DNA of 64,000 nt from assembly GCA_947499555.1 (NCBI GenBank), contig CANMOU010000001.1, positions 496,001 through 560,000 of the forward strand. Reading direction: 5' to 3'. The translations under genes and the position numbers were made by a program. This stretch comes from an uncultured Roseovarius sp. (GTDB taxonomy: Bacteria; Pseudomonadota; Alphaproteobacteria; Rhodobacterales; Rhodobacteraceae). The notes under the pieces are model-generated. The model was not told the origin of the DNA. It saw nothing but the letters and a program-made list of their open reading frames with translations, and ran no database searches. Shown piece after piece: positions 41,023-58,033 of the stretch (positions within the stretch are counted from its first letter, which is position 1; each line of letters begins with the position of its first letter).

Positions 41023-42972
41023 TCACCCTCTGTTCATCCGGTTCTCGATCAGATCATCCACCACGGCCGGCTCGGCAAGCGTGGACGTATCTCCCAACGC
41101 ACCATAGTCATTCTCAGCGATCTTGCGCAGGATGCGGCGCATGATTTTGCCCGAGCGGGTTTTCGGCAGCCCCGGGGCCCATTGGATCAGATCCGGTGAG
41201 GCAATCGGGCCGATCTCAGAGCGCACCCAGTTGCGCAGTTCGGTTTTCAGCTCGTCGGTATATTCCTCACCACCCATCAGCGTCACGTAGCAATAAATGC
41301 CCTGACCCTTGATGTCATGCGGGTAGCCCACAACGGCGGCCTCAGAGACTTTGGGATGTGCCACAAGCGCGCTTTCCACCTCGGCCGTGCCCATACGGTG
41401 GCCAGAGACATTGATCACGTCATCCACACGGCCCGTGATCCAGTAATAGCCATCCTCATCCCGGCGGCAGCCGTCGCCGGTGAAGTAATAGCCTTTGTAA
41501 TCGGCAAAGTAAGTTTTCATGAACCTTTCATGATCGCCCCATACGGTGCGCATTTGCCCCGGCCAGCTGTCCTTCATGCAAAGCACGCCTTCCACGCCAT
41601 TGCCTTCGATGACCTCGCCAGTCGTTGGTTCCAGCACCACGGGTTCGATGCCAAAGAATGGCCCGCAGCAGGAACCGGGTTTGGCCGCTGTTGCGCCGGG
41701 CAGGGGGGTCATCAGGTGACCGCCTGTTTCGGTTTGCCACCACGTGTCCACGATAGGACAGCGCCCGCCACCCACCACGTCGTTATACCAGTTCCAGGCC
41801 TCGGGGTTGATCGGTTCCCCCACCGTGCCGAGCACCCGGACAGAGCTCAGATCGCATTTGGTCACGAACTCATTGCCTTGCCCCATGAGCGCACGAATGG
41901 CCGTGGGTGCGGTGTAGAACTGATTGACCTTGTGCTTTTCGCAAACCTGCCAAAAGCGCGAGGCATCGGGATAGGTGGGCACGCCTTCGAACATGAGCGT
42001 GGTCGCGCCATTGGCGAGCGGGCCATAGACGATATAGCTGTGGCCCGTAACCCAGCCCACATCCGCTGTGCACCAGTAGATGTCGCCCTCGTGATAGTCG
42101 AAAACCAGCTCATGGGTCATCGCGGCATAGACAAGATACCCACCCGTGGTATGCACCACGCCTTTGGGCATGCCGGTTGAGCCTGAGGTGTAGAGGATGA
42201 AGAGCGGATCTTCGGCCCCCATCTCCTCTGGCGGGCAATCGGCATCGACCTTGGCGGCCTCTTCATGCAGCCAGTAGTCGAGGCCCTCGCGCCAGGCGAT
42301 CTGTTCGCCGGTGTGTTTCACGACAAGGCATTTTACTTCGTCAAAGTCATTCAGGAGAGCCTGATTAACATTATCCTTTAGCTTGGTCACACGACCGCCT
42401 CGAGGTGCGGCGTCAGCGGTGATCACCACCTTGGCGTCACAGCCATTCACACGTGCGCCCAAAGCGTCCGGCGAAAAGCCGGCAAAGACGATGGAATGAA
42501 TCGCCCCGATGCGCGCGCAGGCGAGCATGGCGTAGGCCGCTTCCGGGATCATCGGCAGGTAGAGAACAACACGGTCGCCTTTGCCCACGCCCAGGGACTT
42601 GAGCACATTGGCCATCTTGCAGGTCTGTGCATAAAGCTCGTTATAGGTGATATGCATCGCATCTGCGTTGGGATCATCAGGTTCCCAGATGATCGCGGTC
42701 TGCTCGCCACGCTTCGCGAGATGGCGGTCGATGCAGTTGGCGGCCACGTTCAGCGTGCCGTCCTCGAACCATTTGATCGAGACATTGCCGAAGGAATAAT
42801 CGACGTCTTTGACCTTGGTGAAAGGCTTGATCCAGTCAACGCGCTTGCCGTGCTCGGCCCAGAATGCCGCAGGATCGGCCATAGAGGCGGCGTACATCTC
42901 TTCATACTTGGCAGCGTCAATATGAGCGTTGGCCGCAAAATCGGATGCGGGGGCGAAGGTGGTGTCAGACAT
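41023..42972 (-). CDS. acs: Acetyl-CoA synthetase
   Basis: Activates acetate (and possibly propionate) to acyl-CoA with ATP. 649 residues with the AMP-binding P-loop ([15 protein letters not shown]), the GETGG-like pocket ([16 protein letters not shown]) and the C-terminal catalytic Lys in [13 protein letters not shown], the known acetylation site. It is the last gene downstream of a branched-chain-type ABC transporter, and a ScfR-like/SSF-kinase regulatory cluster lies upstream on the other strand. Confidence 0.96.
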
Positions 42973-43011
42973 GGCAGTCCCTCACAGTCTTGTCTTGGGT
43001 CTTGAAGTTTG

Positions 43012-43050
43012 TGCCTGCCCCGCCGACAGGGAGATTTCGTGGGGCAGGCA
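43012..43050 (-). terminator. Hairpin between livF and acs
   Basis: A perfect 10-base inverted repeat (TGCCTGCCCC 43012-43021, GGGGCAGGCA 43041-43050) with a 19-base loop lies just after the livF stop and 40 bases before acs. Without a T-run it more likely sets relative mRNA levels than ends transcription fully. Confidence 0.55.
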
Positions 43051-43057
43051 ATTGGCC

Positions 43058-43813
43058 CTAGATGGCCAGGTATTCGGCGCGCAGTTCTTCGTTTTCAAGA
43101 ACTTCGCTGGCGGTGCCGTCGAAAACAATGCCGCCGGTGTCGAGAATGATCGAGCGATCCGCAAGCTCCAGTGCGCGGACGGCGTTTTGTTCCACCAGAA
43201 CCGTTGTGATGCCCTGTTCCTTGATCGCGTGAAGCGTCTTTTCAATCTCGTCCACAATCACAGGCGCAAGGCCCTCATAAGGCTCATCGAGCAGCAGCAC
43301 CTTGATGTCGCGCGCCAGTGCGCGGGCCACGGCCAACATCTGTTGTTCGCCACCCGAGAGCGTCACGCCCTCTTGCTTACGGCGTTCGGCCAAACGCGGG
43401 AAGAGGTCGTAGATACGATCCAGCGACCAGCCAACAGGCGGTGCGATCTGTGCAAGTTGCAGGTTTTCCTCAACCGTCAGGCCGGGAATGATGCGCCGGT
43501 CTTCAGGCACAAGCCCGATGCCCGCAACCGAGGCCTGGTGCGACGACATGTTATGGAGGGGCTGATGATCCAGCCAAATCTCGCCTTGGTGCAGTTGGGG
43601 GTCATCCATGCGGGCGATGGCACGCAAAGTGGTCGTCTTGCCCGCACCGTTACGGCCCAGAAGGGCCAGGATTTCACCTTCATGCACGTTGAACGAGATG
43701 TCCTGCACGATGTAGCTTTCGCCGTAATAGGCCCGCATGCCCCAGACAGACAGATAGGCAGGTGCGGTTTCGGCGTAGTTTTTACCTTTGGAGAAGTCGG
43801 GTTTCACATTCAT
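43058..43813 (-). CDS. livF: ABC transporter ATPase, LivF type
   Basis: 251 residues with Walker A (LGRNGAGKTTTLRA), signature (LSGGEQQML), Walker B (VLLLDEPYEGLAP) and H-loop region. The LivF branch of the hydrophobic-amino-acid (HAAT) ABC family. 14 bases downstream of livG. N-terminal about 20 residues are a non-standard extension (FSKGKNYAETAPAYLSVWG). Confidence 0.92.
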   Translation of the reverse strand: MNVKPDFSKGKNYAETAPAYLSVWGMRAYYGESYIVQDISFNVHEGEILALLGRNGAGKTTTLRAIARMDDPQLHQGEIWLDHQPLHNMSSHQASVAGIGLVPEDRRIIPGLTVEENLQLAQIAPPVGWSLDRIYDLFPRLAERRKQEGVTLSGGEQQMLAVARALARDIKVLLLDEPYEGLAPVIVDEIEKTLHAIKEQGITTVLVEQNAVRALELADRSIILDTGGIVFDGTASEVLENEELRAEYLAI

Positions 43814-43827
43814 CGGTCGTCTCCTGA

Positions 43828-44583
43828 TTAGGCCGCCTCACCAAGATACGCTTCGCGCACCTTTGGATGGCCCTTGATTTTGTCCGGTGTGTCCTCGACC
43901 AGAGGTGTGCCTTGCGCCAGCACCGTAATCCGCTCGGCCAGAGAGAACACCACATGCATGTCGTGCTCGATGATTGCGATTGTTATGTCGCGCTCATCCT
44001 TGATCTGTTTGAGCAGGTCGATCGTGTTGTTGGTGTCGGCCCGGGCCATGCCGGCTGTCGGCTCATCCAGAAGCAGAAGCCGAGGTTCCTGCGCCAGGCA
44101 CATGCCGATTTCCAGGCGACGTTTGTTGCCACGCGACATCGCGGCAGCGTGGTCATGGCGCGCATCGGCAAGGTTGAGGCTTTCGAGCATGTCTTCGGCC
44201 TGCTCAACGATTTCCTTTTCGTTGAACGTGCTTTCAATGGCATGCATCCGGAACGCCCCGTCACGCTTGGCAAAAATCGGGATCATCATGTTTTCCAGCA
44301 CTGAAAGGTCGCCGAAGATCTCAGGTGTCTGGAACACGCGGGAGATGCCCATCTGGTTGATCTGGTAGGGTTTGCGCCCCAATACAGATTGCCCGTCAAA
44401 CATCACCGATCCGGTGTCGGGGATCAGCTTGCCGATGAGGCAGTTGAGCAGCGTGGACTTGCCCGCCCCGTTGGGGCCGATGATGGCATGCACACTATGC
44501 TCTGCCACGCTGAGGTTTACATCGCCCAGGGCCTGCAGGCCGCCGAAGCGCTTGTTGACGTTCTTGACTTCAAGAATACCCAT
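43828..44583 (-). CDS. livG: ABC transporter ATPase, LivG type
   Basis: 251 residues with Walker A ([12 protein letters not shown]) and Walker B (LLLLDEPTAGMARAD). The signature stretch reads MSRGNKRRLEIGMC instead of the usual LSYGEQRRLEIA, an unusual change that marks a distinct HAAT subgroup. Pairs with the LivF-type ATPase to drive uptake. Confidence 0.92.
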   Translation of the reverse strand: MGILEVKNVNKRFGGLQALGDVNLSVAEHSVHAIIGPNGAGKSTLLNCLIGKLIPDTGSVMFDGQSVLGRKPYQINQMGISRVFQTPEIFGDLSVLENMMIPIFAKRDGAFRMHAIESTFNEKEIVEQAEDMLESLNLADARHDHAAAMSRGNKRRLEIGMCLAQEPRLLLLDEPTAGMARADTNNTIDLLKQIKDERDITIAIIEHDMHVVFSLAERITVLAQGTPLVEDTPDKIKGHPKVREAYLGEAA

Positions 44584-44595
44584 CGCTCTGGCTCC

Positions 44596-45795
44596 TTATT
44601 CTGCAGGGGTTGATTGTGTGGCTTCCTCAGCATCGCCCTTGGCCTTCTTGCGACCAAAGAGACGGGCGATGCGCTGGCCACCTTCCACAAGGCCACCGGG
44701 CAGGAAGATCACCACGGCCATGAAGATGATGCCGAGCGTCAGGTGCCAGCCTTTGCCGACGAAGGGATAGACGATCGTAACCAGGAAATTCTCGATCCCG
44801 TCGGGCAGAATGGCGAACCATTGATGCAGGATGTCCTTGTTGATCTTGCTGAGGATATTTTCCATGTACTTGATCGCACCTGCGCCAAGAACCGGACCAA
44901 TAAGTGTGCCGACACCACCAAGAATGGTCATCAGGACGACTTCACCAGACGCCGTCCAGAACATCCGCTCGGGGCCGGCTTGTGTGTCCATCGCGACCAG
45001 CAGGCCACCGGCGAGACCGGCATACATGCCCGAAATCACGAAGGCCGCGAGCGTATAGGGCCGCGCATTGAGGCCTGTGTAGTACATCCGTGTCTGATTT
45101 GACTTCACCGCCCGCAGCATCGTGCCAAACGGCGACCGGAAGATGCGGATCGAGAGGTAAAACGCCAGGATCATGAACACCGCGGCAATGTAGTAGCCAG
45201 AGTTGAAGGTGAAGAGCCAATCGCCCAGGCCAAGCTCAAAGCTGGTGCGCATATCCATGCCAAACAGATTGGCGCGACCGATCTCACCGGGTTCGAGGTT
45301 GGACAGGATCGGACGGTCGGTTGCCTTGATCTGCAGGCCGGTTTCGCCACCCGTGATGGGTGTCAAGACGGAGTAGGCCAGGGCATAGGACATCTGTGCA
45401 AAGGCCAGTGTCAGGATCGAGAAATAGATGCCTGACCGTCGGAGCGAGATATATCCAACGGCCAGTGCGAAGATACCAGCAAAGATCACACCCATGATGA
45501 TCGCAGGGATCACGTTGAGCGTAACAAGCTTCATCATCCAGATCGCTGCATAAGAGCCGACACCCAGGAAGGCCGCGTGACCAAAGCTGAGATATCCCGT
45601 GAGACCAAAGAGGATGTTGAACCCGATGGCAAAGATGCCAAAGATCACAAACCGCTGCATCAGATCGGGATAGCCCGCGTTGAATTGCGCCAGTCCCGAG
45701 CTTTCCGGGAAGGGGTTGAGGAGGAAGGGCGCCAGCATTGTCAGCGCCACGACAATCACGAGAAGGCGGAAATCTTTCTTGTCGAGACCCAGCAT
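44596..45795 (-). CDS. livM: ABC transporter permease, LivM type
   Basis: A 399-residue membrane protein with about ten segments and the LivM core ([34 protein letters not shown]). The C-terminal tail is charged ([17 protein letters not shown]). Spaced by three bases from livH and 12 from livG. Confidence 0.92.
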
Positions 45796-45798
45796 GAT

Positions 45799-46920
45799 TT
45801 ACTCCTCCATGACGCCCTTGCGGCCCATAAGGCCCCGAGGACGGGTCAACAGAATGATGATCGCCACCAGGAAGATGATGATCTGATTGAGGCCAGGCAG
45901 CACTTCGAGCACTTCACCCATTGAGGCAAAGGCTTCGAGTACGCCCAGGAGGAAGCCGGCAAGCACCGCACCGGGCAGTGATCCCATGCCGCCCACAACC
46001 ACGACAACGAAGCTCAGAACAAGAAAGTCCATGCCCATGTGGTAGTTGGGAGAGTTAATGGGGGTGTACATCACGCCCGCAAGGCCTGCGACAGCGGCGG
46101 CAAGACCGAACATCAAGGTAAAGCGCCGGTCAATGTTGATACCCAGAAGCTGCACGGTTTCGCGATCCGCCATGCCAGCGCGGACAACCATCCCGAAAGT
46201 GGTGAATTGCAGGAAGGCAAAGACGCCACCGATGAGAAGCGCGCCAAAGGCGAAGTAGATGATCCGCCAATAGGGGTAGATGATGACATTGGGGTCAAAG
46301 CCCAGCATCGCGCCAAAATCAAACGATCCGCTGAATGCGGCCGGCGCCGGTGTCGGGATCGGGTTGGCGCCGTAGAAGGCCTTGATGATTTCTTGTAGGA
46401 CGATGGCCAGACCGAAGGTCACCAGGATCTGGTCTGCATGCGGACGTTTGTAGAAATGCTTGATCAGCCCGCGCTCCATCACGATGCCAACCAGCACCAT
46501 GATCGGGATCGAGAACAAGATAGCCAGTGGGACGGCCCAGTCGATGATTGCATCGCCCGTCTCTTTTCCGAACCAGTCATAGAGGTAAGGCACCTGAATC
46601 TTGGACGGGTTTCCCAGGAAATCGGTTTTGGATTCGTCAATCACCGTGTGCGAGAGCGTCAAGACCCGGCTGAGTGTCACAGCACAGAATGCGCCGATCA
46701 TGAACAGCGCACCATGCGCAAAATTCACCACACCCAGCGTGCCAAAGATCAGCGTCAGGCCAAGCGCGATGAGCGCATATGCTGAGCCCTTGCTAAGCCC
46801 GTCGAGTGTCTGGAGGATTGTCGCCTCGACACCGAAAAGCAGCCCTACGACGACAAAGAACGCGACGATTGCGCCCAATACGCCGGTGGTCGCAGTCAGA
46901 TTGCTACGAGAGTTGTCCAT
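45799..46920 (-). CDS. livH: ABC transporter permease, LivH type
   Basis: A 373-residue membrane protein with the LivH core (GLTLIFGTLGVVNFAHGALFM; AVAGLAGVMY). About 70 residues longer than typical LivH, with an insertion after the second segment (about residues 85-120), which is seen in urea/amide-type HAAT permeases. Separated from the binding-protein gene by a 117-base spacer holding hairpins. Confidence 0.92.
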   Translation of the reverse strand: MDNSRSNLTATTGVLGAIVAFFVVVGLLFGVEATILQTLDGLSKGSAYALIALGLTLIFGTLGVVNFAHGALFMIGAFCAVTLSRVLTLSHTVIDESKTDFLGNPSKIQVPYLYDWFGKETGDAIIDWAVPLAILFSIPIMVLVGIVMERGLIKHFYKRPHADQILVTFGLAIVLQEIIKAFYGANPIPTPAPAAFSGSFDFGAMLGFDPNVIIYPYWRIIYFAFGALLIGGVFAFLQFTTFGMVVRAGMADRETVQLLGINIDRRFTLMFGLAAAVAGLAGVMYTPINSPNYHMGMDFLVLSFVVVVVGGMGSLPGAVLAGFLLGVLEAFASMGEVLEVLPGLNQIIIFLVAIIILLTRPRGLMGRKGVMEE

Positions 46921-46953
46921 AGTCCCACCTATTGAATTCTATTCGGAGCCAGT

Positions 46954-47014
46954 CATGCCGATTTCAGGCCATACTGGCCGGCATGTGGGGGGTGGCAGGG
47001 GCGAAAATTCGCCC
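46954..47014 (-). other. Hairpins between binding-protein gene and livH
   Basis: CATGCC...GGCATG (46954-46985) encloses GGCCA-tac-TGGCC, and GGGCGAA-aa-TTCGCCC lies at 46999-47014. Such 3' structures commonly protect the upstream binding-protein message, giving it higher abundance than the membrane subunits. Confidence 0.5.
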
Positions 47015-47037
47015 GAGCCAGATTTTTCGAATGACGC

Positions 47038-48390
47038 TTATGCGCCGGGGTTACAGGTGCCCAGCGTCGCTTCGGCGCCGCCCATCTGTGGGTGGTCCGG
47101 TGCGTATGTCACCTGATCAACCGGCGTCACCTCAACGATTTCGAGCAGGTCGAATTCGCTGTCAGGGTTCTCCTTGCCTTTCACAACCAGCACGTCTTTG
47201 AAGCACTGGTGGTCATCGGCGCGATACAGCGTCTTGCCGTTACCCATGCCATCGAATTCGAAGCCTTCAAGCGCTTCTACAACAGCACATGGGTTGAACG
47301 ATCCGGCGCGTTCCACGGCGTCTGCATAAAGCAGGGCCTGAACGTAGCAGGTGTGCGCGGCCTGTGACGGCGGGAAGCCGTACTTGGTGCCGAACGACTT
47401 GACGAACGCCTTGGAGCCTTCGTCCTGCAGCGACCAGTGCCAGTTGGTGGACCCAAAGATGCCCTTCACGTTCGCGCCCGCACCTTTCGCCATCAGGCGA
47501 GAGTAGAGAGGCACGATGATCTGGAAGTCTTTACCGTTCACCTGCTTGTCACGCAGACCGAACTGAACCGCGTTGGTCAGCGAGTTCACCATGTTGCCGC
47601 CGTAGTGATTCAGAACCAGCGTATCGGCACCCGACTGCAGAACCGGTGCGATATAGGAAGAGAAGTCGGTTTGTGTCAGCGGAGTTTTCACAGCCGCTAC
47701 CGTTTCCCAGCCCAGAGCCTCGGTTGAAGCTTTCACGGCTTCTTCAGTGGTGTAGCCCCAGTTGTAGTCAGCCGTCAGGTGATAGGCTTTGCGGTCTGTG
47801 CCGTAAGCGCCTGCAAGCACCGGCGCCAGAGCGGCACCCGACATGTACGAGTTGAAGAAGTGGCGGAAGCCATTGGCCTTGCGGTCTTTACCCGTGGTGT
47901 CGTTGGAGTGTGTCAGACCGGCCATGAAGATAACGCCAGCCTCTTGACAAAGCGCTTGTACGGCCACGGCCACACCCGAGGACGAGCCACCGGTGATCAT
48001 CACCGCACCGTCTTTTTCGATCATCGACTTCGCGGATGCGCGTGCGGCGTCAGCTTTGGTCTGTGTGTCGCCGGTGACGTACTCGACTTTCTTGCCCAGG
48101 ATACCGTTGCCTTGCAGGGCCTTGGACGAGAAGGTGCTCATCATGCCGCCGTCGCCACCACCGTTGAGGTGTTCAACAGCCAGTTCGTAAGCGCGCAGCT
48201 CATCCGCACCCTCATCAGCGTAAGGGCCAGTCTGAGGCACGTTGAAGCCGAGCGTAACGGACCCGCCGGTTGGCTCGTTCGTGAACGCCGAGGCGGATTG
48301 TGCCGTGAAGATCGTCGGCAGAGCGACGCCAGCACCGGCAACTGCGCCGGTCTTTAGAAGTCCACGACGTGTGAGGTCAGTTTTTGACAT
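47038..48390 (-). CDS. ABC transporter periplasmic substrate-binding protein (HAAT family)
   Basis: 450 residues with a twin-arginine-type signal (MSKTDLTRRGLLKTGAVAGAG) and a type I periplasmic binding fold (LGFNVPQTGPYADEG; ITGGSSSGVAVAVQALC). First gene of the transporter-acs unit. The ligand cannot be read; the neighbours (acs, ScfR-like regulator) suggest an acyl compound or short-chain carboxylate rather than an amino acid. Cys pairs near the C-terminus (HQCFKD, GTCNPG). Confidence 0.9.
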   Translation of the reverse strand: MSKTDLTRRGLLKTGAVAGAGVALPTIFTAQSASAFTNEPTGGSVTLGFNVPQTGPYADEGADELRAYELAVEHLNGGGDGGMMSTFSSKALQGNGILGKKVEYVTGDTQTKADAARASAKSMIEKDGAVMITGGSSSGVAVAVQALCQEAGVIFMAGLTHSNDTTGKDRKANGFRHFFNSYMSGAALAPVLAGAYGTDRKAYHLTADYNWGYTTEEAVKASTEALGWETVAAVKTPLTQTDFSSYIAPVLQSGADTLVLNHYGGNMVNSLTNAVQFGLRDKQVNGKDFQIIVPLYSRLMAKGAGANVKGIFGSTNWHWSLQDEGSKAFVKSFGTKYGFPPSQAAHTCYVQALLYADAVERAGSFNPCAVVEALEGFEFDGMGNGKTLYRADDHQCFKDVLVVKGKENPDSEFDLLEIVEVTPVDQVTYAPDHPQMGGAEATLGTCNPGA

Positions 48391-48536
48391 TTAGTTCCTC
48401 CCTAGTGTCAAACGGCGAAGATTGCCGAAAAGGAGACGATCTCCTCCATCGTCTCTTCGCCACGCACTGAAGTGCAAATCCATTATCGCAGGTCAGAAGA
48501 AAATCAGGCAACAAGCGCCTCAGCTTAAACGGTTTT

Positions 48537-48577
48537 TTTGTAAATAAATTGATCATGATATTCGTAAATCTTGTAAA
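48537..48577. promoter_or_regulatory. Cluster of TTYGTAAA sites in the divergent spacer
   Basis: Three similar octamers (TTTGTAAA at 48537, TTCGTAAA at 48561, CTTGTAAA at 48570) lie between the binding-protein gene and the ScfR-like gene. They differ from the ScfR half-site TTTGCAAA at one or two positions. The last two are direct repeats nine bases apart. The spacer is AT-rich and should hold both promoters. Confidence 0.5.
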
Positions 48578-48627
48578 TTTCTTTCATTTCGGATAAGGAA
48601 AGTAAATGTTTTGAAGGGTAACTGAAA

Positions 48628-49950
48628 ATGCTGGATCGCAGCATGGTGGGCACTCGGATCCGCGAAAGACGGGTGATGACGGGGCTCAAACAGGCCGAAT
48701 TGGCAGAGAAGGCCGGAATTTCTGCGTCTTACCTTAATCTTATCGAACACAATCGGCGCCGAATCGGCGGGCGAACGCTTTTGCAGATTGCCGAGGTTCT
48801 GGAAGTGGAGCCGACAGCGCTGAGCGAAGGGGCAGGCGCGCATCTTCTGACGGCATTGCAAGAGGCCGCTGCAGGCCAAAGGCAAATTGGCGATTCCTCT
48901 GATGCGATCGCTGAACCGGAACTTGATCGTGTCGAGGAATTCGCAGGCCGTTTTCCCGGATGGGCCGGGCTTTTGGCCGGTTTGAGCGAACGGTGCACCG
49001 GAATGGAACGCACGATCACGGTTCTGACTGAACGCCTTGCCCATGATCCGCAATTGGCCGAAGCCCTTCACGAAGTCATCTCGACAGCGACATCCATTCG
49101 CTCCACCGCGGCCATCCTTGCCGAGACGCGCGAGCTGGAGCCCGAATGGCAGATGCGCTTTCACCGGAATATCAACGAGGACGGCCAGCGATTGGCGGAA
49201 GGGGCCGAGACGTTGATGCATTACCTTGAATCCGCCCCAGATACGGGTGCCGACATCCGGTCACCACAGGATGAATTGCACCTGTTCCTGGAACAGTACG
49301 GGTTTCATTTTTCGCAACTGGAAGGCTGGGGGGCCGCGCCTCGTGTCGAGGCATTGGTTGACAACAACCCCGCGCTTCGAACTGAACCTGCCCGTATTCT
49401 GGCCCGGAACGTATTGCGTCAAACCGCTGATGATGCTCGTGCGTTGCCGCTCGAAGATATGCGGCGGATCGTGGCGAAGGTAGGTGTGAGACCAGACCAT
49501 ATCGCCGATAAGACAGGGCAGCCCCTGGCGCGTGTCTGTCGCCGGCTGGCCTTCCTGCCGGAAGATATCACCGGGCCAGTAGGTCTTGTCACGATTGACG
49601 GTGCTGGCGCGCTTTTGCTGCGCAAATCCGTTTTGGGCTTCGCCCTGCCACGTAGTGGCGCGGCATGCACGCTTTGGCCGGTTTATGAAGTGCTGGCCCA
49701 ACCAGGCCGCCCGCTGCGCCGCATTCTGCGGCAAGGAGATCTTTCGCTCGAAGCGCTTTCGCTGACCGAAGAAGTCAGGCCGGCTTCCTTTGGTGCCGCG
49801 CCTTTGACGCATGCGCATATGCTTCTGCTGCCCCTAGAGAAAGGCGCCGCATCTGAAGCTGTACTTGATGTCGGAGTGACCTGCCAGATCTGTACGAAAT
49901 CCGATTGTCCTGCACGCCGTGAACCTTCGATCCTGTCAGGTGGTCTCTAG
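48628..49950 (+). CDS. ScfR-like transcriptional regulator with XRE HTH and DHp-like segment
   Basis: 440 residues. Residues 8-65 are an XRE helix-turn-helix (TRIRERRVMTGLKQAELAEKAG). Residues about 140-195 (LHEVISTATSIRSTAAIL ... RFHRNINEDGQRLAEG) resemble the HisKA/DHp phospho-acceptor helix pair, with His148 in H-E-x-x-S. The C-terminal domain ends with a CxxCxxxxC cluster (CQICTKSDCPAR), as in DUF2083/short-chain fatty acyl-CoA regulators. The M78 peptidase HExxH motif of many ScfR relatives is absent. Divergent from the transporter-acs unit; receiver and SSF kinase follow. Confidence 0.75.
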   Translation: MLDRSMVGTRIRERRVMTGLKQAELAEKAGISASYLNLIEHNRRRIGGRTLLQIAEVLEVEPTALSEGAGAHLLTALQEAAAGQRQIGDSSDAIAEPELDRVEEFAGRFPGWAGLLAGLSERCTGMERTITVLTERLAHDPQLAEALHEVISTATSIRSTAAILAETRELEPEWQMRFHRNINEDGQRLAEGAETLMHYLESAPDTGADIRSPQDELHLFLEQYGFHFSQLEGWGAAPRVEALVDNNPALRTEPARILARNVLRQTADDARALPLEDMRRIVAKVGVRPDHIADKTGQPLARVCRRLAFLPEDITGPVGLVTIDGAGALLLRKSVLGFALPRSGAACTLWPVYEVLAQPGRPLRRILRQGDLSLEALSLTEEVRPASFGAAPLTHAHMLLLPLEKGAASEAVLDVGVTCQICTKSDCPARREPSILSGGL

Positions 49951-50043
49951 CCCTTTGAGCGATATGAGTTTTTGACAGAGCGGCGCGGTTTGGCGATAGT
50001 CCATCACACGCGCATACCGACTGATCGGAGGGAGGCCGATTGG

Positions 50044-50412
50044 ATGGGCAAGAAAGTTCTGTTGATCGAGGATGAACAAAACATCATCGAAGCGGTCAGC
50101 TTCATCCTATCGCGTGACGGTTGGGAGGTGAAAACCCATTCCAACGGACATGACGCGATTGATGCGGTGCGCTCCCGTGCGCCCGATATTGTAATACTGG
50201 ATGTGATGCTGCCGGGTAAAAGCGGGTTCGACATCTTGCGCGAGATCCGTGCGGATGAGGCATTTTCAGGGCTGCCAGTCCTGATGTTGTCTGCGCGTGG
50301 TCAGGCGAAAGACGTGGAAATGGCCGAACATGCCGGAGCCAACCAATATATGACGAAACCGTTCTCAAACGCCGAGGTTCTTGATGCCGTGCGTAATCTG
50401 GTGACGGCATGA
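50044..50412 (+). CDS. Stand-alone CheY-like response regulator
   Basis: 122 residues, receiver domain only. Acidic pair E9/D10, phospho-acceptor Asp53 (VILDVMLPGKSGFD), switch Ser in LMLSARG and Lys in YMTKPFS are all present. Start ATG 50044; upstream frame start at 49972 lacks a site. No DNA-binding output, unlike CrbR of the CrbSR pair. The next gene overlaps as ATGA. Confidence 0.9.
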   Translation: MGKKVLLIEDEQNIIEAVSFILSRDGWEVKTHSNGHDAIDAVRSRAPDIVILDVMLPGKSGFDILREIRADEAFSGLPVLMLSARGQAKDVEMAEHAGANQYMTKPFSNAEVLDAVRNLVTA

Positions 50413-50687
50413 GTCGCGAGCCAAGCCCACTCTTTGTTGCGAAAAGAACCTATCGCAGTCGCCGCATGGCAGATGCCGCGCGGTTTCTGCCCATTCTTGG
50501 CACGGGACTCTTCCTTTTGCCGTTGCTTTGGAAAAAGTCCTCCTCGGATGATGCGCCCATGACCGGGACGGTCGAGGTCATGCTTTATGTGTTTCTTGTG
50601 TGGGTCTTTCTGATCGGGGCGGCTGCGATCCTGTCGTACCGAATTCCGCGCTCGGATGAAACGGGTTCGGACCCCGAGCAGGATTAG
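50409..50687 (+). CDS. Small two-segment membrane protein
   Basis: 92 residues with two membrane segments (about 24-38 and 55-75), basic N-terminus and acidic C-terminus (SDETGSDPEQD). Coupled to the receiver gene (ATGA) and nine bases before the SSF kinase. Small membrane proteins accompany SSF-type symporters and kinases (for example CbrX), so a kinase partner is plausible; not recognised by family. Confidence 0.6.
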   Translation: MSREPSPLFVAKRTYRSRRMADAARFLPILGTGLFLLPLLWKKSSSDDAPMTGTVEVMLYVFLVWVFLIGAAAILSYRIPRSDETGSDPEQD

Positions 50688-50696
50688 AGGCGCGCT

Positions 50697-53390
50697 ATGG
50701 CGACGCTGAATATCCTCATCCTGGCTAGCCTGCTTTATGTGGTCCTGCTCTTTGCCGTGGCGTTTGCCGCAGACAGTGCGGCACAACGGGGTCGGGGCAG
50801 GTGGCTTGGTTCCCCGCTGGTCTACACGCTGTCGCTTTCGATCTATTGCACGGCCTGGACGTTTTACGGGGCCGTCGGCTTTGCCGCACGCTCTGGGCTG
50901 GAATTCGTGACAATTTATCTCGGTCCGACGCTGGTCATGATCGGCTGGTGGTGGACGCTGCGCAAAATGGTACGGGTCGGGCGCAGCCAGAGGATCACGT
51001 CCATCGCCGACTTGATTTCTTCTCGCTTTGGCAAATCAAACGCTCTGGCCGTCTTTGTCACGGTCCTCGCCGTTGTCGGAACCACGCCTTACATAGCGCT
51101 TCAGCTGCAGTCGGTCACACTGTCCTACGCGGCTTTTGCCGAATTTGGTGCAACAGGCGAGGCAGAGATCAACCACAGCCTGACGGCATTCTGGGTTGCT
51201 GCTGGCCTAGCGCTTTTCACGATCATTTTCGGGACACGAAACCTTGATGCCAATGAACGGCATCATGGCCTCGTCATGGCGATTGCGATTGAGGCGGTGG
51301 TCAAACTTTTTGCCTTGCTGGCCGTTGGTGTCTTCGTCGTGTGGGGTCTGGCCGGCGGGCTTGAGACCACACTTGCCCGCATCGAAGCCTCGGAGATCGC
51401 CAGATGGGAGGTGCCGGGTTCCCGCTGGGTTGGGTTGACACTCTTGTCGGCGGCGGCGTTTATCTGTCTTCCCCGCATGTTTCAGGTCATGGTCGTGGAG
51501 AACGACGACGAGCGGCATTTGCGTACGGCATCCTGGGCGTTCCCGGCCTACCTGATGCTAATGAGCCTTTTTGTTGTGCCGATTGCGGCGGTCGGCCTTG
51601 ACCTGATGCCTCAGGGCAGCAACCCGGATCTTTTCGTCCTCACGCTTCCCCTGTCGGAAGGCCGGGATGGTCTGGCCATCCTGTCCTTCCTTGGGGGGTT
51701 CAGCTCTGCCACGTCGATGGTAATCGTGGCGGCCATCGCACTCTCGACGATGGTTTCAAACCATGTCGTGATGCCCGTCTGGCTTCGGATGACCGGCGGG
51801 TCGGCCATGATTTCCGGTGACGTGCGGCTTGTGGCCATGCGCGCCCGCCGCCTGTCAATCGCGGTGATCCTGTTTCTGGGGTATCTGTATTTTCGGCTAT
51901 CAGGCGGCGGTACGGCGCTGGCGGCGATCGGGCTTATCTCTTTTGTGGGCGTCGCACAATTTCTGCCAGCGCTTTTGGGCGGCCTGTTTTGGCGCGGCGC
52001 GAACCGCAAAGGGGCCCTTGCGGGCTTGGCGACCGGATTTGCAATCTGGGCCTTTTGCCTTTTCCTGCCAAGTTTTGGTCCCTTTGCTCTTATGCCTCAA
52101 ACGGTGCTTGATCAGGGTCTCATGGGGATTAGCTGGCTCCGGCCACAGGCGCTTTTCGGCACTGATGGTCTTAGCCCCGTGGTGCATGCGTTTATGTGGA
52201 GCCTGTCACTCAACACACTTGTGTTCTTCGTGGTCTCTATTTTCAGCTTCCCCCAACCGGTTGAACGGCTTCAGGGCGCACAGTTTGTGAATGTCTTCGA
52301 ACATTCAACCACAGCTGGGGGCTGGCGCGGCGGCAAGGCGCAGAGTGAAGACCTTCTGATCATGTCACAAAGAATCATGGGGGCAGGCGAAGCGCAGGCG
52401 CTTTTTTCCAGCGCAGCCAAGGCGCAGGGCATTGACGGCTATCTTCCGGAACCGACCCCGGATTTCCTGAGCGAGTTGGAGCGCGCCATGGCTGGTTCGG
52501 TCGGAGCGGCCACGGCGCATGCGATGATCGGGCAAATCGTGGGACGTGCAACAGTGTCGGTTGAAGACCTTATGGCGGTGGCCGATGAGACCGCGCAGAT
52601 TATGGAATATTCCAGCGAGCTTGAAGCCAAGACCGAAGAGCAGGAACGCACCGCGCGCCAGCTGCGACAGGTCAACGAGAAGCTCACCCAGATTTCGGTG
52701 CAAAAAGACGCGTTCCTGAGCCAGATCAGCCACGAGCTGCGCACGCCAATGACCTCCATTCGTGCCTTTTCCGAGATCCTTCGGGATTCGGCGGACATGA
52801 ACGAAAAGGAGCAAAACCGCTATGCCTCGATCATTCATGACGAGGCCATCCGTTTGACCCGGCTCTTGGATGATTTGCTTGATCTTAGTGTGCTGGAAAA
52901 CGCGCAGATCATGCTCAACATGCAGCAAGCGACGCTTGCGGAACTTCTGGACCGGTCCGAGGTCGCGGCGGGGATGGCCGAGGGCGCCATGGTGATGATA
53001 CGTGACCCCGAGGCGGAAGACATCGAGCTTTACACTGATACCGACAGACTGGCGCAGGTCTTTATCAACCTGATGTCGAACGCCCGAAAGTATTGTGATG
53101 CCGAAGCGCCCGAGCTGCGAATTGTCGCCCATGTCATGGGGACCGAAGTCACCATCGACTTCATGGACAATGGCACAGGTATTCCCGCTGACAAACAGGG
53201 GACGATTTTTGAGAAATTCGCCCGCGTGAGTGAAACCAAGGCAGGCGGGGCCGGACTTGGCCTTGCCATCAGCCGCGAAATCATGGCGCGTCTGGGGGGC
53301 AGCATCCAATACCTGCCGGGTCAGACCGGTGCTGCGTTCCGCGTGACATTGCCGTTGGGTGTCGAAAAGGCCGTTGAAGCCGCACAATAA
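50697..53390 (+). CDS. Sodium:solute symporter-histidine kinase fusion (CbrA/CrbS-like)
   Basis: 897 residues. Residues 1-520 form an SSF domain of about thirteen segments (YCTAWTFYGAVGFAARSGLEF, GFSSATSMVIVAAIALSTMV). A linker (about 560-660) with coiled-coil leads to HisKA with His679 (SQISHELRTPMTSIRAF) and a HATPase domain (DNGTGIPADKQGTIFEKFARV; GGAGLGLAISREIM). No PAS or attached receiver is seen. CbrA/CrbS-type kinases sense or import histidine/acetate; CrbS controls acs in gammaproteobacteria. Receiver gene is 280 bases upstream. Confidence 0.92.
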   Translation: MATLNILILASLLYVVLLFAVAFAADSAAQRGRGRWLGSPLVYTLSLSIYCTAWTFYGAVGFAARSGLEFVTIYLGPTLVMIGWWWTLRKMVRVGRSQRITSIADLISSRFGKSNALAVFVTVLAVVGTTPYIALQLQSVTLSYAAFAEFGATGEAEINHSLTAFWVAAGLALFTIIFGTRNLDANERHHGLVMAIAIEAVVKLFALLAVGVFVVWGLAGGLETTLARIEASEIARWEVPGSRWVGLTLLSAAAFICLPRMFQVMVVENDDERHLRTASWAFPAYLMLMSLFVVPIAAVGLDLMPQGSNPDLFVLTLPLSEGRDGLAILSFLGGFSSATSMVIVAAIALSTMVSNHVVMPVWLRMTGGSAMISGDVRLVAMRARRLSIAVILFLGYLYFRLSGGGTALAAIGLISFVGVAQFLPALLGGLFWRGANRKGALAGLATGFAIWAFCLFLPSFGPFALMPQTVLDQGLMGISWLRPQALFGTDGLSPVVHAFMWSLSLNTLVFFVVSIFSFPQPVERLQGAQFVNVFEHSTTAGGWRGGKAQSEDLLIMSQRIMGAGEAQALFSSAAKAQGIDGYLPEPTPDFLSELERAMAGSVGAATAHAMIGQIVGRATVSVEDLMAVADETAQIMEYSSELEAKTEEQERTARQLRQVNEKLTQISVQKDAFLSQISHELRTPMTSIRAFSEILRDSADMNEKEQNRYASIIHDEAIRLTRLLDDLLDLSVLENAQIMLNMQQATLAELLDRSEVAAGMAEGAMVMIRDPEAEDIELYTDTDRLAQVFINLMSNARKYCDAEAPELRIVAHVMGTEVTIDFMDNGTGIPADKQGTIFEKFARVSETKAGGAGLGLAISREIMARLGGSIQYLPGQTGAAFRVTLPLGVEKAVEAAQ

Positions 53391-53492
53391 AGCGCGCCAA
53401 TCCTGCGCCTTTCCCGCGGCGGTTTAGTCAATGGTAACCAAACCGCAGGTAAGGTCTCTTCGTGTAACAAGGTTTGACGAGCAACATTAGTT

Positions 53493-54632
53493 ATGAGCGC
53501 TGAGACACCCGAAACGGTTCTCCACCGCAAAGCACGGGTGGGGCGCGATGGATTTGACGCGCGAGAAATGTCTCCGGCAAAGGCGCTTCGGCTGGCCTTG
53601 GCCAAATCCGCGGCCCGGCTGATGGATCTTGTGCTGGTGGTGCGCACGGTTGAGCAATCTGATCTGCCTCTGGCCAAGCTTGAAGAAAAGCTTGGCGATG
53701 ACGGGTTGCTCATTCTCCTTGACGGTCCTGATCAGGCGCGGGGTGCGGTGCGACTTGATCTTCAGGTGGTCTCGGCCCTGATCGAAATGCAGCTTAAGGG
53801 TCAGGTAAAACGGGCAGAGGCCACGCCGCGGCCCTTCACGCAAACCGATGCCGCCATCGCGCAGCCGTTGATTAATGCGATGCTGGAAGGATTTGATGAG
53901 ACCTTGCTGGAGGCAGGGATCACGACAGACCCTGATGGCTTTCGGTTTGGTGACCGGATAGCTGATGCGCGCACATTGTATTTGGCCCTGACCATTCCGC
54001 TCTATGATCATTTCCGTCTCATGCTCGATCTGGCAGGCGGTGCAAAATCAGGTCGGATCGATATTCTGCTGCCAAAGCGTGACCATATGCAGAAATCCGA
54101 AGCCAACCGGGCCGAAGAACCAACCAGGCCCAGTCTTGAACAGGTCGCGCTTGGCGCGCCGGTGACATTGAACGCGGCACTTGGAGGGGTGAAGTACCCA
54201 CTGGATGAGGTGTGCGCCTGGAGCGCGGGAACCATTGTGCCGCTGCCGCCTGACATTCTGAACGCCGCGCATCTTCTTGGGGCAGGGCAGCATGTTGTCG
54301 CCTCGGTTTCGCTTGGGCAATTACATGGGTTTCGGGCTGTGCGCCTGGTGGACCGGGCCTCGGGCAAGCCGATTGAGCGCACGGTGCCGCGCCAGACAGC
54401 GGCCTCGACTCCGGCCGCGCCAGACCTGATAGACGCGGTCGCGGAAGGCGTGGTGCCCGGTGAACACGGCCCTGAAAAGGACAAAAACCCCCAGACGCTC
54501 ACGCAGATCGATGGTGACGTCAAGACGGGGCAATCATCCATTGGCGTGACAGATGCTGCAGGCGCGTTAGATCCCGACGATGATCTTGAGGCGCTGATTG
54601 CCGCGTCGACCCTGCCATCAACAGCCGCGTAA
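53493..54632 (+). CDS. FliM/FliN-like (SpoA domain) protein outside a flagellar operon
   Basis: 379 residues. A C-terminal SpoA/FliN domain at about 213-285 (ALGAPVTLNAALGGVKYPLDEV) and a FliM-middle-like region at about 28-150 (PRPFTQTDAAIAQPLINAML). The N-terminal CheY-binding peptide of FliM is missing; a similar acidic-amphipathic peptide, DPDDDLEALIAAS, occurs at the C-terminus. 102 bases after the SSF kinase, with a hairpin (53418-53446) between. No flagellar genes surround it. Confidence 0.72.
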   Translation: MSAETPETVLHRKARVGRDGFDAREMSPAKALRLALAKSAARLMDLVLVVRTVEQSDLPLAKLEEKLGDDGLLILLDGPDQARGAVRLDLQVVSALIEMQLKGQVKRAEATPRPFTQTDAAIAQPLINAMLEGFDETLLEAGITTDPDGFRFGDRIADARTLYLALTIPLYDHFRLMLDLAGGAKSGRIDILLPKRDHMQKSEANRAEEPTRPSLEQVALGAPVTLNAALGGVKYPLDEVCAWSAGTIVPLPPDILNAAHLLGAGQHVVASVSLGQLHGFRAVRLVDRASGKPIERTVPRQTAASTPAAPDLIDAVAEGVVPGEHGPEKDKNPQTLTQIDGDVKTGQSSIGVTDAAGALDPDDDLEALIAASTLPSTAA

Positions 54633-54646
54633 TGGCGGCGGTATGA

Positions 54647-55510
54647 CTAGAGCTTGTTGAGCGGCACCTTCAGCATCACATCGCCCTGTTCATCTGCGGG
54701 GGGCATTTTTCCGGCGCGCATATTGATCTGCAGCGACGGAATGATCAGCCGCGGCATCGGTAGTTTGGCATCCCGTGCATCGCGCATTTCGACAAAGCTG
54801 TCGCAATCCTGTCCGCCGCCCACATGAACGTTGCGGGCCTTTTGTTCGCCCACGGTGGTTTCCCAGGCATACTCCTCTCGCCCCGGCGCCTTGTAGTCGT
54901 GACCGACGAAAATGCGTGTTTCTTCCGGCAAGGAGAGAATCCGTTGAATCGACTGATAAAGCATCTCCGATGAGCCGCCCGGAAAATCACAGCGCGCGGT
55001 GCCAAAATCCGGCATGAAAAGCGTGTCACCCACAAAGGCTGCATCGCCCAGAACATAGGTCAGGCAGGCCGGTGTGTGCCCAGGTGTGTGCATCACATCC
55101 CCACGCAATTGTCCGACGGCGAAACTATCTCCATCGACGAACAGCCGATCAAATTGAGATCCGTCCCGCTGAAATTCGGTGCCTTCATTGAAGACCTTGC
55201 CAAACGTGTCCTGCACCGTGGTGATCTGGTCCCCGATGCCGATCTGGCCACCGACGCGCTCCTGAATGTAGGGGGCCGCAGAAAGGTGGTCGGCGTGTAC
55301 ATGCGTCTCCAGCAGCCAGTCGACTTTCAGTGCTTCTTTTTCGATATGCGCGACAATCGCATCCGCTGACCGTGTGTCCGTCCGGCCTGAGGCGTAGTCA
55401 AAATCGAGCACGGAATCGATGACGGCACAGGAGCGGCCTTCGGGGTCTTTCACCACGTAGGAAATCGTATTTGTCTGTTCGTCAAAGAATGCTGTGACGT
55501 CGGGCCGCAT
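54647..55510 (-). CDS. ETHE1/Blh-like MBL-fold metallohydrolase
   Basis: 287 residues. HxHxDH (ETHVHADHLSAAPY), HTPGHTPACLTY, GDTLFMPDFGTARCDFPGG and VGHDY place it among persulfide dioxygenase-like Blh/ETHE1 proteins, which oxidise glutathione persulfide using one iron. ATG 55510 with AAAGGAGG immediately upstream. The usual rhodanese and BigR neighbours are absent here. Confidence 0.88.
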   Translation of the reverse strand: MRPDVTAFFDEQTNTISYVVKDPEGRSCAVIDSVLDFDYASGRTDTRSADAIVAHIEKEALKVDWLLETHVHADHLSAAPYIQERVGGQIGIGDQITTVQDTFGKVFNEGTEFQRDGSQFDRLFVDGDSFAVGQLRGDVMHTPGHTPACLTYVLGDAAFVGDTLFMPDFGTARCDFPGGSSEMLYQSIQRILSLPEETRIFVGHDYKAPGREEYAWETTVGEQKARNVHVGGGQDCDSFVEMRDARDAKLPMPRLIIPSLQINMRAGKMPPADEQGDVMLKVPLNKL

Positions 55511-55679
55511 CACGACCTCCTTTTTTTGCACAGGAATTGGGCACTTACCTGCAAGTTAAGCAAATTGCGTCGGAACTGTCATGACAATGTTGCTATAAAA
55601 ATGGCATACTGACTGTATTCTGCAAGTCCACGGTTGGTTTTTCGGGAGTGACCATGCGTGAAAAGAGGGAGGAATATGA

Positions 55680-55889
55680 ATGGACCGTCTGTCCGAGGAA
55701 ATGAAGGAATTACACCAGACAATTTTGAATACAGCAGAAGACTCTCGCTATCTGCTGCAGCCGCATCTGGCAGGATTGCTGGCTCGTGTCGAGGCCGCAG
55801 GTCAACCCATACCGAGAGATATCCGCGCTCTGAATGACGAATTGACCGATGCCGCGATTGAGGCACAGTTCGACAACATGCCCGTCTAA
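55680..55889 (+). CDS. Small conserved hypothetical protein
   Basis: 69 residues, soluble, helical (DRLSEEMKELHQTILNTAEDS), no signal peptide. GGAGG site eight bases upstream of ATG 55680. Divergent from the metallohydrolase gene; the 169-base spacer holds AT-rich promoter-like sequence (TATAAA, CATACT). Family unknown. Confidence 0.6.
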   Translation: MDRLSEEMKELHQTILNTAEDSRYLLQPHLAGLLARVEAAGQPIPRDIRALNDELTDAAIEAQFDNMPV

Positions 55890-55990
55890 AAGAAACGAGA
55901 CGCACCTCAAAGCTTGCCTCCCGCGTCATTTCGGCGTGTAATCACGTCAAGCCGACTGCAAAATCGGCAGGGAACGAAACGAGGCTTTGA

Positions 55991-58033
55991 GTGGGGTCCG
56001 AGGTTCACTACAGCGTGGAAAACGGTGTTGCTGTCATTCGCATGACGCGCGGTGCCGAAAATGCGCTTGTGCCCGACATGCGGGCAGAGCTTGTCGACGC
56101 ACTGAAACAGGCCATTGCTGATGGTGATGTTTCGGCGCTGACCCTAAGTGGTCTTGGTCGGGTGTTTTCTTCCGGGATTGATCTTGAAGAATATAACAGC
56201 GGCCTGCAGCAGCCTTGGGTGACGGATGTCTGTCAGGTGATCGAGTCCTCTCCCAAACCTGTGGTTGCCTCACTGCATGGCGCTGCACTTGGTGCGGGGT
56301 TCGAGCTAGCATTGTCGGCCCATGCCCGGGTCGCCGAAGCGGAAACGAAAGTTGGCTTGCCGGAAGCGCGCTTGGGGATGCTGCCGGGCGGGGGCGGAAC
56401 GCAACGCCTGCCGCGGCTCGTCGGGGCGCAGGCATCGCTCAAAATGCTTTTGTCGGGGCAGGTCTACCCGGTGGATGATCCGATGCTTGCTCCGGTTTTT
56501 GCGCGGATTGTTGCGGGCGATCCGATCTCGGTTGCAATCGATCTGGCAGGCCGCCTCGCACAAGCCGGAGGGTGGGGCAGGACCGCAGAGGCAGATATCG
56601 GCTTTAGCGATCCCACCGGCTACCAGCGCGCGATCCAGTCTGTCCGCGCAAAGCTGACACCTTCTGACACGCTTGAGGCAGAGATCTTGCGCTGCGTCGA
56701 GGCGGCACAGCTCTTGCCCTTCGATCAGGCACTCGAAGTTGAACGAACCTTGTTTGAGGCCCGGCGCAAATCAAGTGCGGCACGCGGCATTCGTCACGCC
56801 TTTGCAGCTGAACGCCGCGCGCGCGGCATGCCGGACCTGACCGGTATCATGGCCAAGGACGTCAAAAAAGTGGTGATCATCGGCACGGCGCCATCGCATG
56901 CCGATCTGGCAGTTGCCGCGTTGAACCGGGGCAAGTCGGTCACGCTTCTGGCCTCTGAACCGCAAGAGGCCGATGCCATCGCCGCCAGGGTGGGCGAGAT
57001 TTACCAAAGCGCGCTTCAACGCGGTCGCATAGACATTATTGACCGCGACGCGCGTCTGCGCGAGCTGAGCGCCGGTGATGACCGCAGCGCCATTCTTGAC
57101 GCTGATCTTATCCTCGACAGCGGCGGCGTTGTGATCGCCCATACCAAGGCCAAACCCGATGCCGCATGGTGTGTACTGGACGAGGCACAGCCATCACAGA
57201 CCCGTGCCAATGAGGTTGGCAATCCAACTATGGCGCTGCGGGTCTACCGCCCGGCCTATATTCCCCGGCTGGCCGAGATCGCCACCAACCCCGATAGCCC
57301 GACCGAGGCCGTGGCCCGCGCCGTCAGCTATTTCTCGGGGCAGGGGGCCACTGTGTTGCGGGTGCGTGAGCGGCCGGGGCTGCTTGGTCATACGCTGTCG
57401 GCGATTCTGAATCGGGCGGCGCTTATCCTGGTGCGCTCGGGTGCGGATGTGGAAACGGTTGATTCCGCCGCCGAAGAGCTGGGTTTCGTGCGCGGGCCGT
57501 TTCATCAGATGGACGCCGGCGGACTGCAACACAGCCTACAGCTGATCGAGCATGTGATTGGAACCGATGCTGCGGCACCAGAACTTGACCTTCTGCGCGC
57601 CCGGGTCGGCTTGATGGCATCCGGTGACGTGGCGGGCACAGGGTTTTACGCCACCCAGGGCGAGGCCAGCGTGGTTGATCCGGGCCTTCGCGCCTGGCTT
57701 GAGACCTGGCGCAGCGGACAGATCGACCTTAAGGCCGACCTTTCCAAAGTCGAAGGCCCGTCGATTCAGGTCGCGCTGCACGCTGCTATTGTGAATGCCG
57801 CTGTCAGGATGATCGAGAACGGCGACGTCCTTCGGGCCTCTGATATCGATCTTTGCCTGGTGAAGGGTTATGGCTTTGACCGGACAAAAGGCGGACCACT
57901 TCTTTGGGCGGACATTCAGGGCCTGCTGCCGCTCTTGCGGACCATGAAGGCATTGAAGCCGCTCTCAGAGATATGGCAAGCTCATCCCAGAATCGAAGAA
58001 ATGGTCAAGAACGGACAGCGATTCTTCAGCTGA
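55991..58033 (+). CDS. FadJ-like fusion: enoyl-CoA hydratase with degenerate 3-hydroxyacyl-CoA dehydrogenase half
   Basis: 680 residues. The N-terminal crotonase domain is intact (GAALGAGFELALS, Glu; VGLPEARLGMLPGGGGTQ, second Glu). The C-terminal half keeps the overall dehydrogenase length but the Rossmann glycine motif GxGxxG reads GTAPSHADL, the NTS Ser region is missing, and the catalytic His of HFFxP is replaced (MALRVYRPAY). So hydration of enoyl-CoA is expected, dehydrogenation is doubtful. GTG start at 55991 after GAGGC. Ends convergently with a small membrane gene (8-base overlap). Confidence 0.85.
   Translation: MGSEVHYSVENGVAVIRMTRGAENALVPDMRAELVDALKQAIADGDVSALTLSGLGRVFSSGIDLEEYNSGLQQPWVTDVCQVIESSPKPVVASLHGAALGAGFELALSAHARVAEAETKVGLPEARLGMLPGGGGTQRLPRLVGAQASLKMLLSGQVYPVDDPMLAPVFARIVAGDPISVAIDLAGRLAQAGGWGRTAEADIGFSDPTGYQRAIQSVRAKLTPSDTLEAEILRCVEAAQLLPFDQALEVERTLFEARRKSSAARGIRHAFAAERRARGMPDLTGIMAKDVKKVVIIGTAPSHADLAVAALNRGKSVTLLASEPQEADAIAARVGEIYQSALQRGRIDIIDRDARLRELSAGDDRSAILDADLILDSGGVVIAHTKAKPDAAWCVLDEAQPSQTRANEVGNPTMALRVYRPAYIPRLAEIATNPDSPTEAVARAVSYFSGQGATVLRVRERPGLLGHTLSAILNRAALILVRSGADVETVDSAAEELGFVRGPFHQMDAGGLQHSLQLIEHVIGTDAAAPELDLLRARVGLMASGDVAGTGFYATQGEASVVDPGLRAWLETWRSGQIDLKADLSKVEGPSIQVALHAAIVNAAVRMIENGDVLRASDIDLCLVKGYGFDRTKGGPLLWADIQGLLPLLRTMKALKPLSEIWQAHPRIEEMVKNGQRFFS

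Follow-up and report, generated by a model that had tools for sequence, protein, structure and literature searches.

A recurrent alphaproteobacterial gene block that may join an SLC5-type histidine kinase and a stand-alone receiver to an ScfR-like regulator of small-carboxylate uptake

To which partner does a sensor histidine kinase signal when the receiver encoded with it has no DNA-binding part? The question is raised by a 64-kb stretch of DNA (the window) from a Roseovarius-type genome (3.73 Mb, 99.9% complete), whose nearest named relatives, among the matches listed, are Roseovarius. All genes that an earlier note on this DNA had described were present, each at its position and on its strand. 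On the negative strand, a transporter operon begins with the gene of a periplasmic binding protein (47038..48390; Peripla_BP_6), followed by a LivH/UrtB-like (45799..46920) and a LivM/UrtC-like (44596..45795) permease, each with PF02653 (BPD_transp_2), a LivG/UrtD-like ATPase (43828..44583; PF00005, BCA_ABC_TP_C), a LivF/UrtE-like ATPase (43058..43813; PF00005) and, as its last and optional member, acs, encoding acetyl-CoA synthetase (41023..42972; TIGR02188, 1011.8 bits, cut-off 724.95). The intergenic gaps within this series range from 3 to 117 bp.

Divergently, the positive strand carries genes for an ScfR/RamB-like regulator (48628..49950), a stand-alone receiver (50044..50412; PF00072), a small protein of 92 aa (50409..50687), a non-hybrid SLC5-type (SSF) histidine kinase of 897 aa (50697..53390) and a FliM homologue (53493..54632). 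The receiver and small-protein genes share four bases, and nine bases separate the small protein from the start of the kinase. The listed reading frame of the receiver opens with TTG at 49972; a GGAGG precedes the ATG at 50044, which is the likely start. Beyond FliM lie a metallo-beta-lactamase-fold protein and an enoyl-CoA hydratase/3-hydroxyacyl-CoA dehydrogenase (54647-58033), which are often retained there in relatives.

We evaluated this gene order in named loci whose kinase is closely related to that of the window (the best 80 of 583), scoring neighbours only on sufficiently long contigs. Upstream of the kinase, the small membrane protein was found in 77/77, the receiver in 76/76 and the ScfR-like regulator in 73/73. 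The divergent transporter was nearly as constant: the binding protein adjoined in 69/72 loci, the LivH/UrtB-like and LivM/UrtC-like permeases in 69/72 and 68/71, and the LivG/UrtD-like and LivF/UrtE-like ATPases in 68/71 and 59/62, respectively. FliM adjoined in 70/76 loci, and acs in just 36/62. Three loci (L063, L064 and L130) have lost the transporter and retained the other four genes. Two DMT-type exporter genes adjoin ScfR in these three; in the window they stand beyond acs.

A profile built from the kinase's transporter part had matches in 103 of 387 alphaproteobacterial genomes. Twenty loci with non-hybrid kinases, in nearly all cases each from a different family, and 10 with hybrid kinases were chosen for a search of partners by tblastn at 1e-4, a threshold at which diverged copies may escape. 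Among the 20 non-hybrid loci, the receiver lay upstream in 19 (15 within 1 kb and 4 at 2.4-2.7 kb), ScfR was present in 14 and the transporter in 12. Direct adjacency of acs was seen once, in L185, where the gene closes the transporter block immediately before the receiver and kinase; a second locus has acs several kb off. The 10 hybrid loci had no such block of receiver, ScfR, transporter, acs or FliM partners, and in five of them a response regulator, identified as LuxR-type by sequence rather than by Pfam, lay within ~200 bp of the kinase. Because gene order is constant in the 80 named loci and in most of the 20 distant ones, chance linkage is excluded. The genes are real, their linkage is strong, and the block of regulator, receiver, small membrane protein, kinase and transporter recurs in other alphaproteobacterial families, as the earlier note had anticipated for the family. 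Neither acs, an optional member, nor FliM, a neighbour, is core to it.

Two further arrangements were seen. A genome that bears the standard module (G011) also has a second, diverged one (L050), in which the order is receiver, kinase, ScfR on the opposite strand, then binding protein and permeases. On plasmid 1 of Paracoccus denitrificans (L251), an SLC5 kinase is encoded with a nucleotidyltransferase-substrate-binding protein, a small protein, a bare receiver and an exonuclease-domain protein.

The description of the kinase as an SSF kinase stands in substance, although the Pfam SSF family itself had no match to it: residues 4-464 match the solved CbrA chain 10ed_A (E=4e-67), and this match is the basis of the SLC5 assignment. 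It ends ahead of the presumed STAC domain, for which the remaining interval is suitable in length. The only Pfam domains are HisKA and HATPase_c, with no further PAS or REC domains, and the kinase is the single one of the non-hybrid SLC5 type in its genome. In a quick tree of 38 transporter parts, non-hybrid and hybrid kinases were separated by one branch (SH-aLRT 100); the tree holds no named CrbS, and "CrbS-like" is a label drawn from size and neighbour.

By our own reading of the alignment with 10ed_A, the pocket residues Y50, W54, F70, Y74 and F416 are kept, T55 stands for CbrA A56 and S251 for F248. T52 replaces the CbrA serine that holds the ligand carboxylate, and K203 corresponds to the lysine of the Na2 site (roles as given in the available part of PMC13022988); both are invariant in 10 rows. 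The pocket therefore appears compatible with a carboxylate ligand and proton coupling, and leaves the identity of the ligand unspecified.

Pfam confirmed that the receiver carries no output or DNA-binding domain. Its residues E9, D10, D53 and K105 are invariant across 78 aligned receivers, and position 83 is T in 88% of these rows and S in the window; the protein is very likely phosphorylatable. The small protein shows two hydrophobic stretches by eye. No Pfam family scored above cut-off, and a comparison with solved chains gave no match to CbrX; in place and topology the protein is CbrX-like.

The regulator upstream of the receiver combines HTH_3 with PF09856 (ScfRs; 48.4 bits, cut-off 24) and falls below the cut-off of the RamB model NF038139 (105.7 of 700 bits). 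Regulators of the ScfR family read acyl-CoA inside the cell. In the regions between the binding protein and ScfR, pairs of TTGTAAA-type boxes had starts 32 bp apart in 41/70 and 33 bp apart in 7/70, and no pair at 32 bp arose in 100 mononucleotide shuffles. The window has the 33-bp form, with boxes at 48538 and 48571 (48538..48577, positive strand), the sole such pair in the 64 kb. A strict double box at either spacing is absent from ~22/70 regions; it is retained in two of the three loci without a transporter (L063 and L130), and of the 12 distant loci that carry one, only 3 showed it. In the RamB operator, a spacer of 18 bp separates two boxes of almost the same sequence (PMC10370305, in extract), and a box of 14 bp, a length that is our own reading, plus 18 bp gives 32. 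The double box is thus the predicted ScfR operator, which would control both operons and, where acs ends the transporter operon, acs as well. Regulation of the transporter and acs through the ScfR-like regulator, as first suggested, gains from this footprint and loses from the frequent absence of acs.

As to what is carried, the solved chains that best match the binding protein bear the names of branched-chain amino acid-binding or other ligand-binding proteins, and those named for urea match less well. A urea ABC transporter, UrtABCDE, was considered and rejected, the models scoring below their cut-offs (UrtA 68.2 of 492.75, UrtE 203.1 of 285.8 and UrtD 243.7 of 304.1). In R. pomeroyi, SPO1017-1021 is listed as a "lactic acid" ABC transporter (PMC9870897 and PMC9723723, in part); it is not starred as mutant-confirmed in the available part of PMC9870897. 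That these genes are orthologues of the window transporter is a lead only: the gene order fits, and the tags are unlinked to locus L124. The earlier note had included acs in the system and proposed that it senses acetate or short-chain acyl compounds. Given that acs adjoins in just 36/62 named loci and one of the 20 distant ones, acetate as ligand is unsupported and is only one candidate among possible ligands.

On balance, we lean slightly towards an alphaproteobacterial module for sensing and uptake of small carboxylates, in which ScfR relays the action of kinase and receiver to the transporter(-acs) operon. Through its transporter domain, the SLC5-type kinase would sense a small carboxylate, or its flux, possibly with the two-helix small protein as a CbrX-like subunit, and would pass a phosphoryl group to the stand-alone receiver. 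Having no DNA-binding part, the receiver would most likely act on the co-encoded ScfR-type regulator, which may additionally read intracellular acyl-CoA, as its family does. ScfR would bind the double box of the divergent promoter and set the ABC transporter operon, with acs where it stands at the end, and its own operon. The downstream fliM, presumably the flagellar switch gene of motile relatives and perhaps under its own promoter, would lie outside the core. Against the module stand the loss of the transporter in 3/72 loci, the frequent absence of acs, the incomplete occurrence of the strict double box and the receiver-kinase pairs that occur without ScfR. The bareness of the receiver bears out the idea of a system "without a conventional output", yet the phrase may be too strong, since the ScfR-like regulator encoded just upstream is able to serve as the DNA-binding output.

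Alternatively, the receiver could be a feedback or sink protein that damps the kinase by binding it, in the manner of FixT and Osp, with the true output regulator encoded elsewhere, a reading that we regard as unlikely but worth weighing. Osp, a single-domain receiver of R. sphaeroides, directly inhibits the kinase CckA, and both FixT and Osp are without the acid residues tied to phosphorylation (PMC9430884, in extract), whereas the window receiver keeps its acceptor residues. Its linkage to the kinase in all 76 named loci scored (best 80 of 583) and 19 of the 20 distant ones also speaks against a mere damper. For an output regulator elsewhere, the genome does hold distant LuxR-type proteins: a CrbR profile made from five proteins beside hybrid kinases had five matches there, the best at 144 bits. 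By comparison, four of the five profile members scored 321-368 bits in searches of their own genomes, a hybrid-adjacent protein outside the profile 276 bits, proteins not beside the hybrid kinase in hybrid-bearing genomes 283 and 289 bits, and unlinked matches in Rhodobacteraceae up to 219 bits. No response regulator of CrbR strength was thus found in the window's genome with this profile, in agreement with the original remark that a bare receiver stands in place of CrbR, and from these scores a true CrbR, even a distant and unlinked one, is unlikely there.

It is rather improbable that the linkage is purely historical, with transporter plus ScfR and receiver plus kinase as two independent units side by side. 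Transporter loss with the remainder kept, and receiver-kinase pairs without an ScfR match in 6/20 distant loci, are what such independence would leave; together with the Paracoccus variant, these pairs imply that the receiver may not need ScfR. However, in every one of the 73 named loci scored (best 80 of 583), ScfR lies ahead of the receiver and shares its strand, and the pairing of ScfR and receiver recurs in other families and in the diverged L050 copy, there with ScfR on the opposite strand. 

The FliM-like protein had been offered as a second possible output. It has the FliM fold, with a CheC-like middle domain and a SpoA domain (FliMN_C, 26.3 bits against a cut-off of 23.8), and probably corresponds to the FliM of the flagellar switch in motile relatives. 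In 85/110 family genomes that bear the kinase, FliM follows it downstream within 3 kb; across the 20 distant loci, tblastn gave zero FliM matches at E<=1e-4, a search that a strongly diverged copy could escape. An element ~70 nt before fliM (53423..53437, positive strand) is loosely CtrA-box-like, matching TTAAN7TTAA, which we take to be the CtrA consensus. With up to two mismatches, this site occurs in 85/90 regions, against ~13 expected from shuffles; it resembles TAAA-N7-GTAACC, is found in genomes without FlhA too, and may be a separate promoter for fliM. The tail of the window protein hinted at a C-terminal motif of the CheY-binding kind; only 4/29 FliM sequences have it, and the idea was discarded.

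FlhA has no match in the window's genome and PF01052 only one, with no second such as FliN; by these two measures the genome has no working flagellar motor. It is one of 22 among 120 family genomes in which FlhA is missing (20 listed, plus G155 and G157 deduced from the FlhA match list). Thirteen of the 22 keep FliM, 12 of them linked to the kinase, and all 13 have FliG; the remaining nine have neither. The random chance of this split is 2e-6, a figure for genomes that share ancestry, and the paired retention could follow from the age of flagellum loss. Six genomes without FlhA keep the kinase and have no FliM, and the receiver was present in the four fetched (L201-L204). When presence and absence are mapped onto a quick tree of 37 chosen kinase rows, the minimum number of changes is 11 for FlhA and 6 for FliM, of which 7 and 5, respectively, are forced by starred branches. 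The absence of distant matches, these six genomes, the element before fliM and the probable flagellar identity make FliM an unlikely output, and the idea that FliM is indispensable to the module was rejected.

Could FliM and FliG nonetheless have a second job? A non-flagellar FliM-FliG switch complex in Rhodobacteraceae that outlives the flagellum and is controlled by the SLC5 kinase and the CheY-like receiver seems to us quite improbable. In the closest pair without FlhA, G001/G010, dN/dS was 0.18 for FliM and 0.10 for FliG, which shows purifying selection on both. In more distant pairs without FlhA, where synonymous sites are less reliable, the ratios were 0.27-0.41 for FliM and 0.15-0.46 for FliG, as compared with 0.24-0.51 for flagellated FliM pairs; the weaker constraint on FliG in these pairs counts against the FliM reading. 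At matched kinase identity, the identity of the FliM core was similar with and without flagella, and slightly lower without them in two bins (0.278 and 0.287 vs 0.306 at 0.60-0.65; 0.297 and 0.292 vs 0.319 at 0.65-0.70).

A full-length orphan fliG with FliG_N/M/C domains and unrelated genes on either side was located in the window's own genome (C1, ~188 kb; L205:4160-5272). In P. inhibens, an orphan fliG is required for motility (PMC12363192, available part). There, fliM appears solely in the reference list, so the screen, as far as that part extends, did not report fliM as needed. A second job is countered by the escape of orphan genes from cluster deletion, by the motility role of fliG, by the FliM of G157, which is interrupted by a stop, and by G163, G178 and G181, which were without FliG in a search of 20 own-genus genomes lacking FlhA. 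Among the titles and abstract starts listed in literature searches, few of them from subscription papers, there was no report of FliM and FliG kept without a flagellum.

The slimmest chance of all is that of a private chemotaxis line with the receiver binding the FliM-like protein and steering a motor directly: CheY-type receivers do bind FliM, and the fold and the proximity to the kinase would suit it, but the distant loci lack FliM matches, the window's genome lacks an FlhA match, no CheY-binding-like motif is conserved at the FliM C-terminus, the element before fliM suggests a separate promoter, and six kinase-bearing genomes without FlhA dispense with FliM, with the receiver still present in the four fetched.

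What emerges is a widespread branch of SLC5 kinases firmly linked, at the head of an uptake operon, to a bare receiver and a regulator of the acyl-CoA type, an arrangement in which sensors of outside and inside metabolites may meet on one promoter. The same titles and abstract starts, again with few subscription papers, gave no report of this wiring of kinase, receiver, ScfR and transporter. That FliM and FliG persist together where the flagellum is missing bears either on a role of the switch in a motor-less cell or on the pace of orphan-gene decay; if their second job were true, a nutrient sensor would be wired to a motor-less flagellar switch.

Several parts of the locus have counterparts in described systems. 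Osp and FixT are, like the window receiver, stand-alone receivers acting with histidine kinases (PMC9430884, in extract), though only the window receiver keeps the phosphorylation residues. The FliM fold is shared with the Fla2-type FliM of R. sphaeroides, where fliM and fliG likewise lie away from the cluster (PMC7277832, in part); the window FliM, by contrast, stands beside a sensor kinase in a genome without an FlhA match or a second PF01052 match. With the ScfR regulators RamB, PccR and PrpR, the window regulator has HTH_3 and PF09856 in common, and its divergent promoter resembles the double-box layout of the RamB operator (PMC10370305, in extract). It differs from them in falling below the RamB model cut-off and in sharing its gene block with those of an SLC5 kinase and a receiver.

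The closest likenesses are to the SLC5 kinases themselves. CrbS/CrbR (MxtR/ErdR), whose known output is acetate assimilation (PMC5715377 and PMC9100948, available parts), shares with the window module an SLC5-type histidine kinase and a link to acs. Its kinase is a hybrid with a LuxR-type partner, whereas the window has a non-hybrid kinase and a bare receiver, and CrbS-like hybrids stand across the supported branch from window-type kinases. CbrX/CbrA/CbrB has a homologous SLC5 kinase, a small two-helix protein directly upstream and the same Na2-site lysine (PMC13022988, in part). The small protein of the window agrees with CbrX in place and hydrophobic stretches, without a sequence match. CbrB, however, is a sigma-54 activator with a DNA-binding domain. 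While the described SLC5 kinases CrbS, CbrA and RpuS signal to DNA-binding response regulators, kinases of the window type are paired with a bare receiver.
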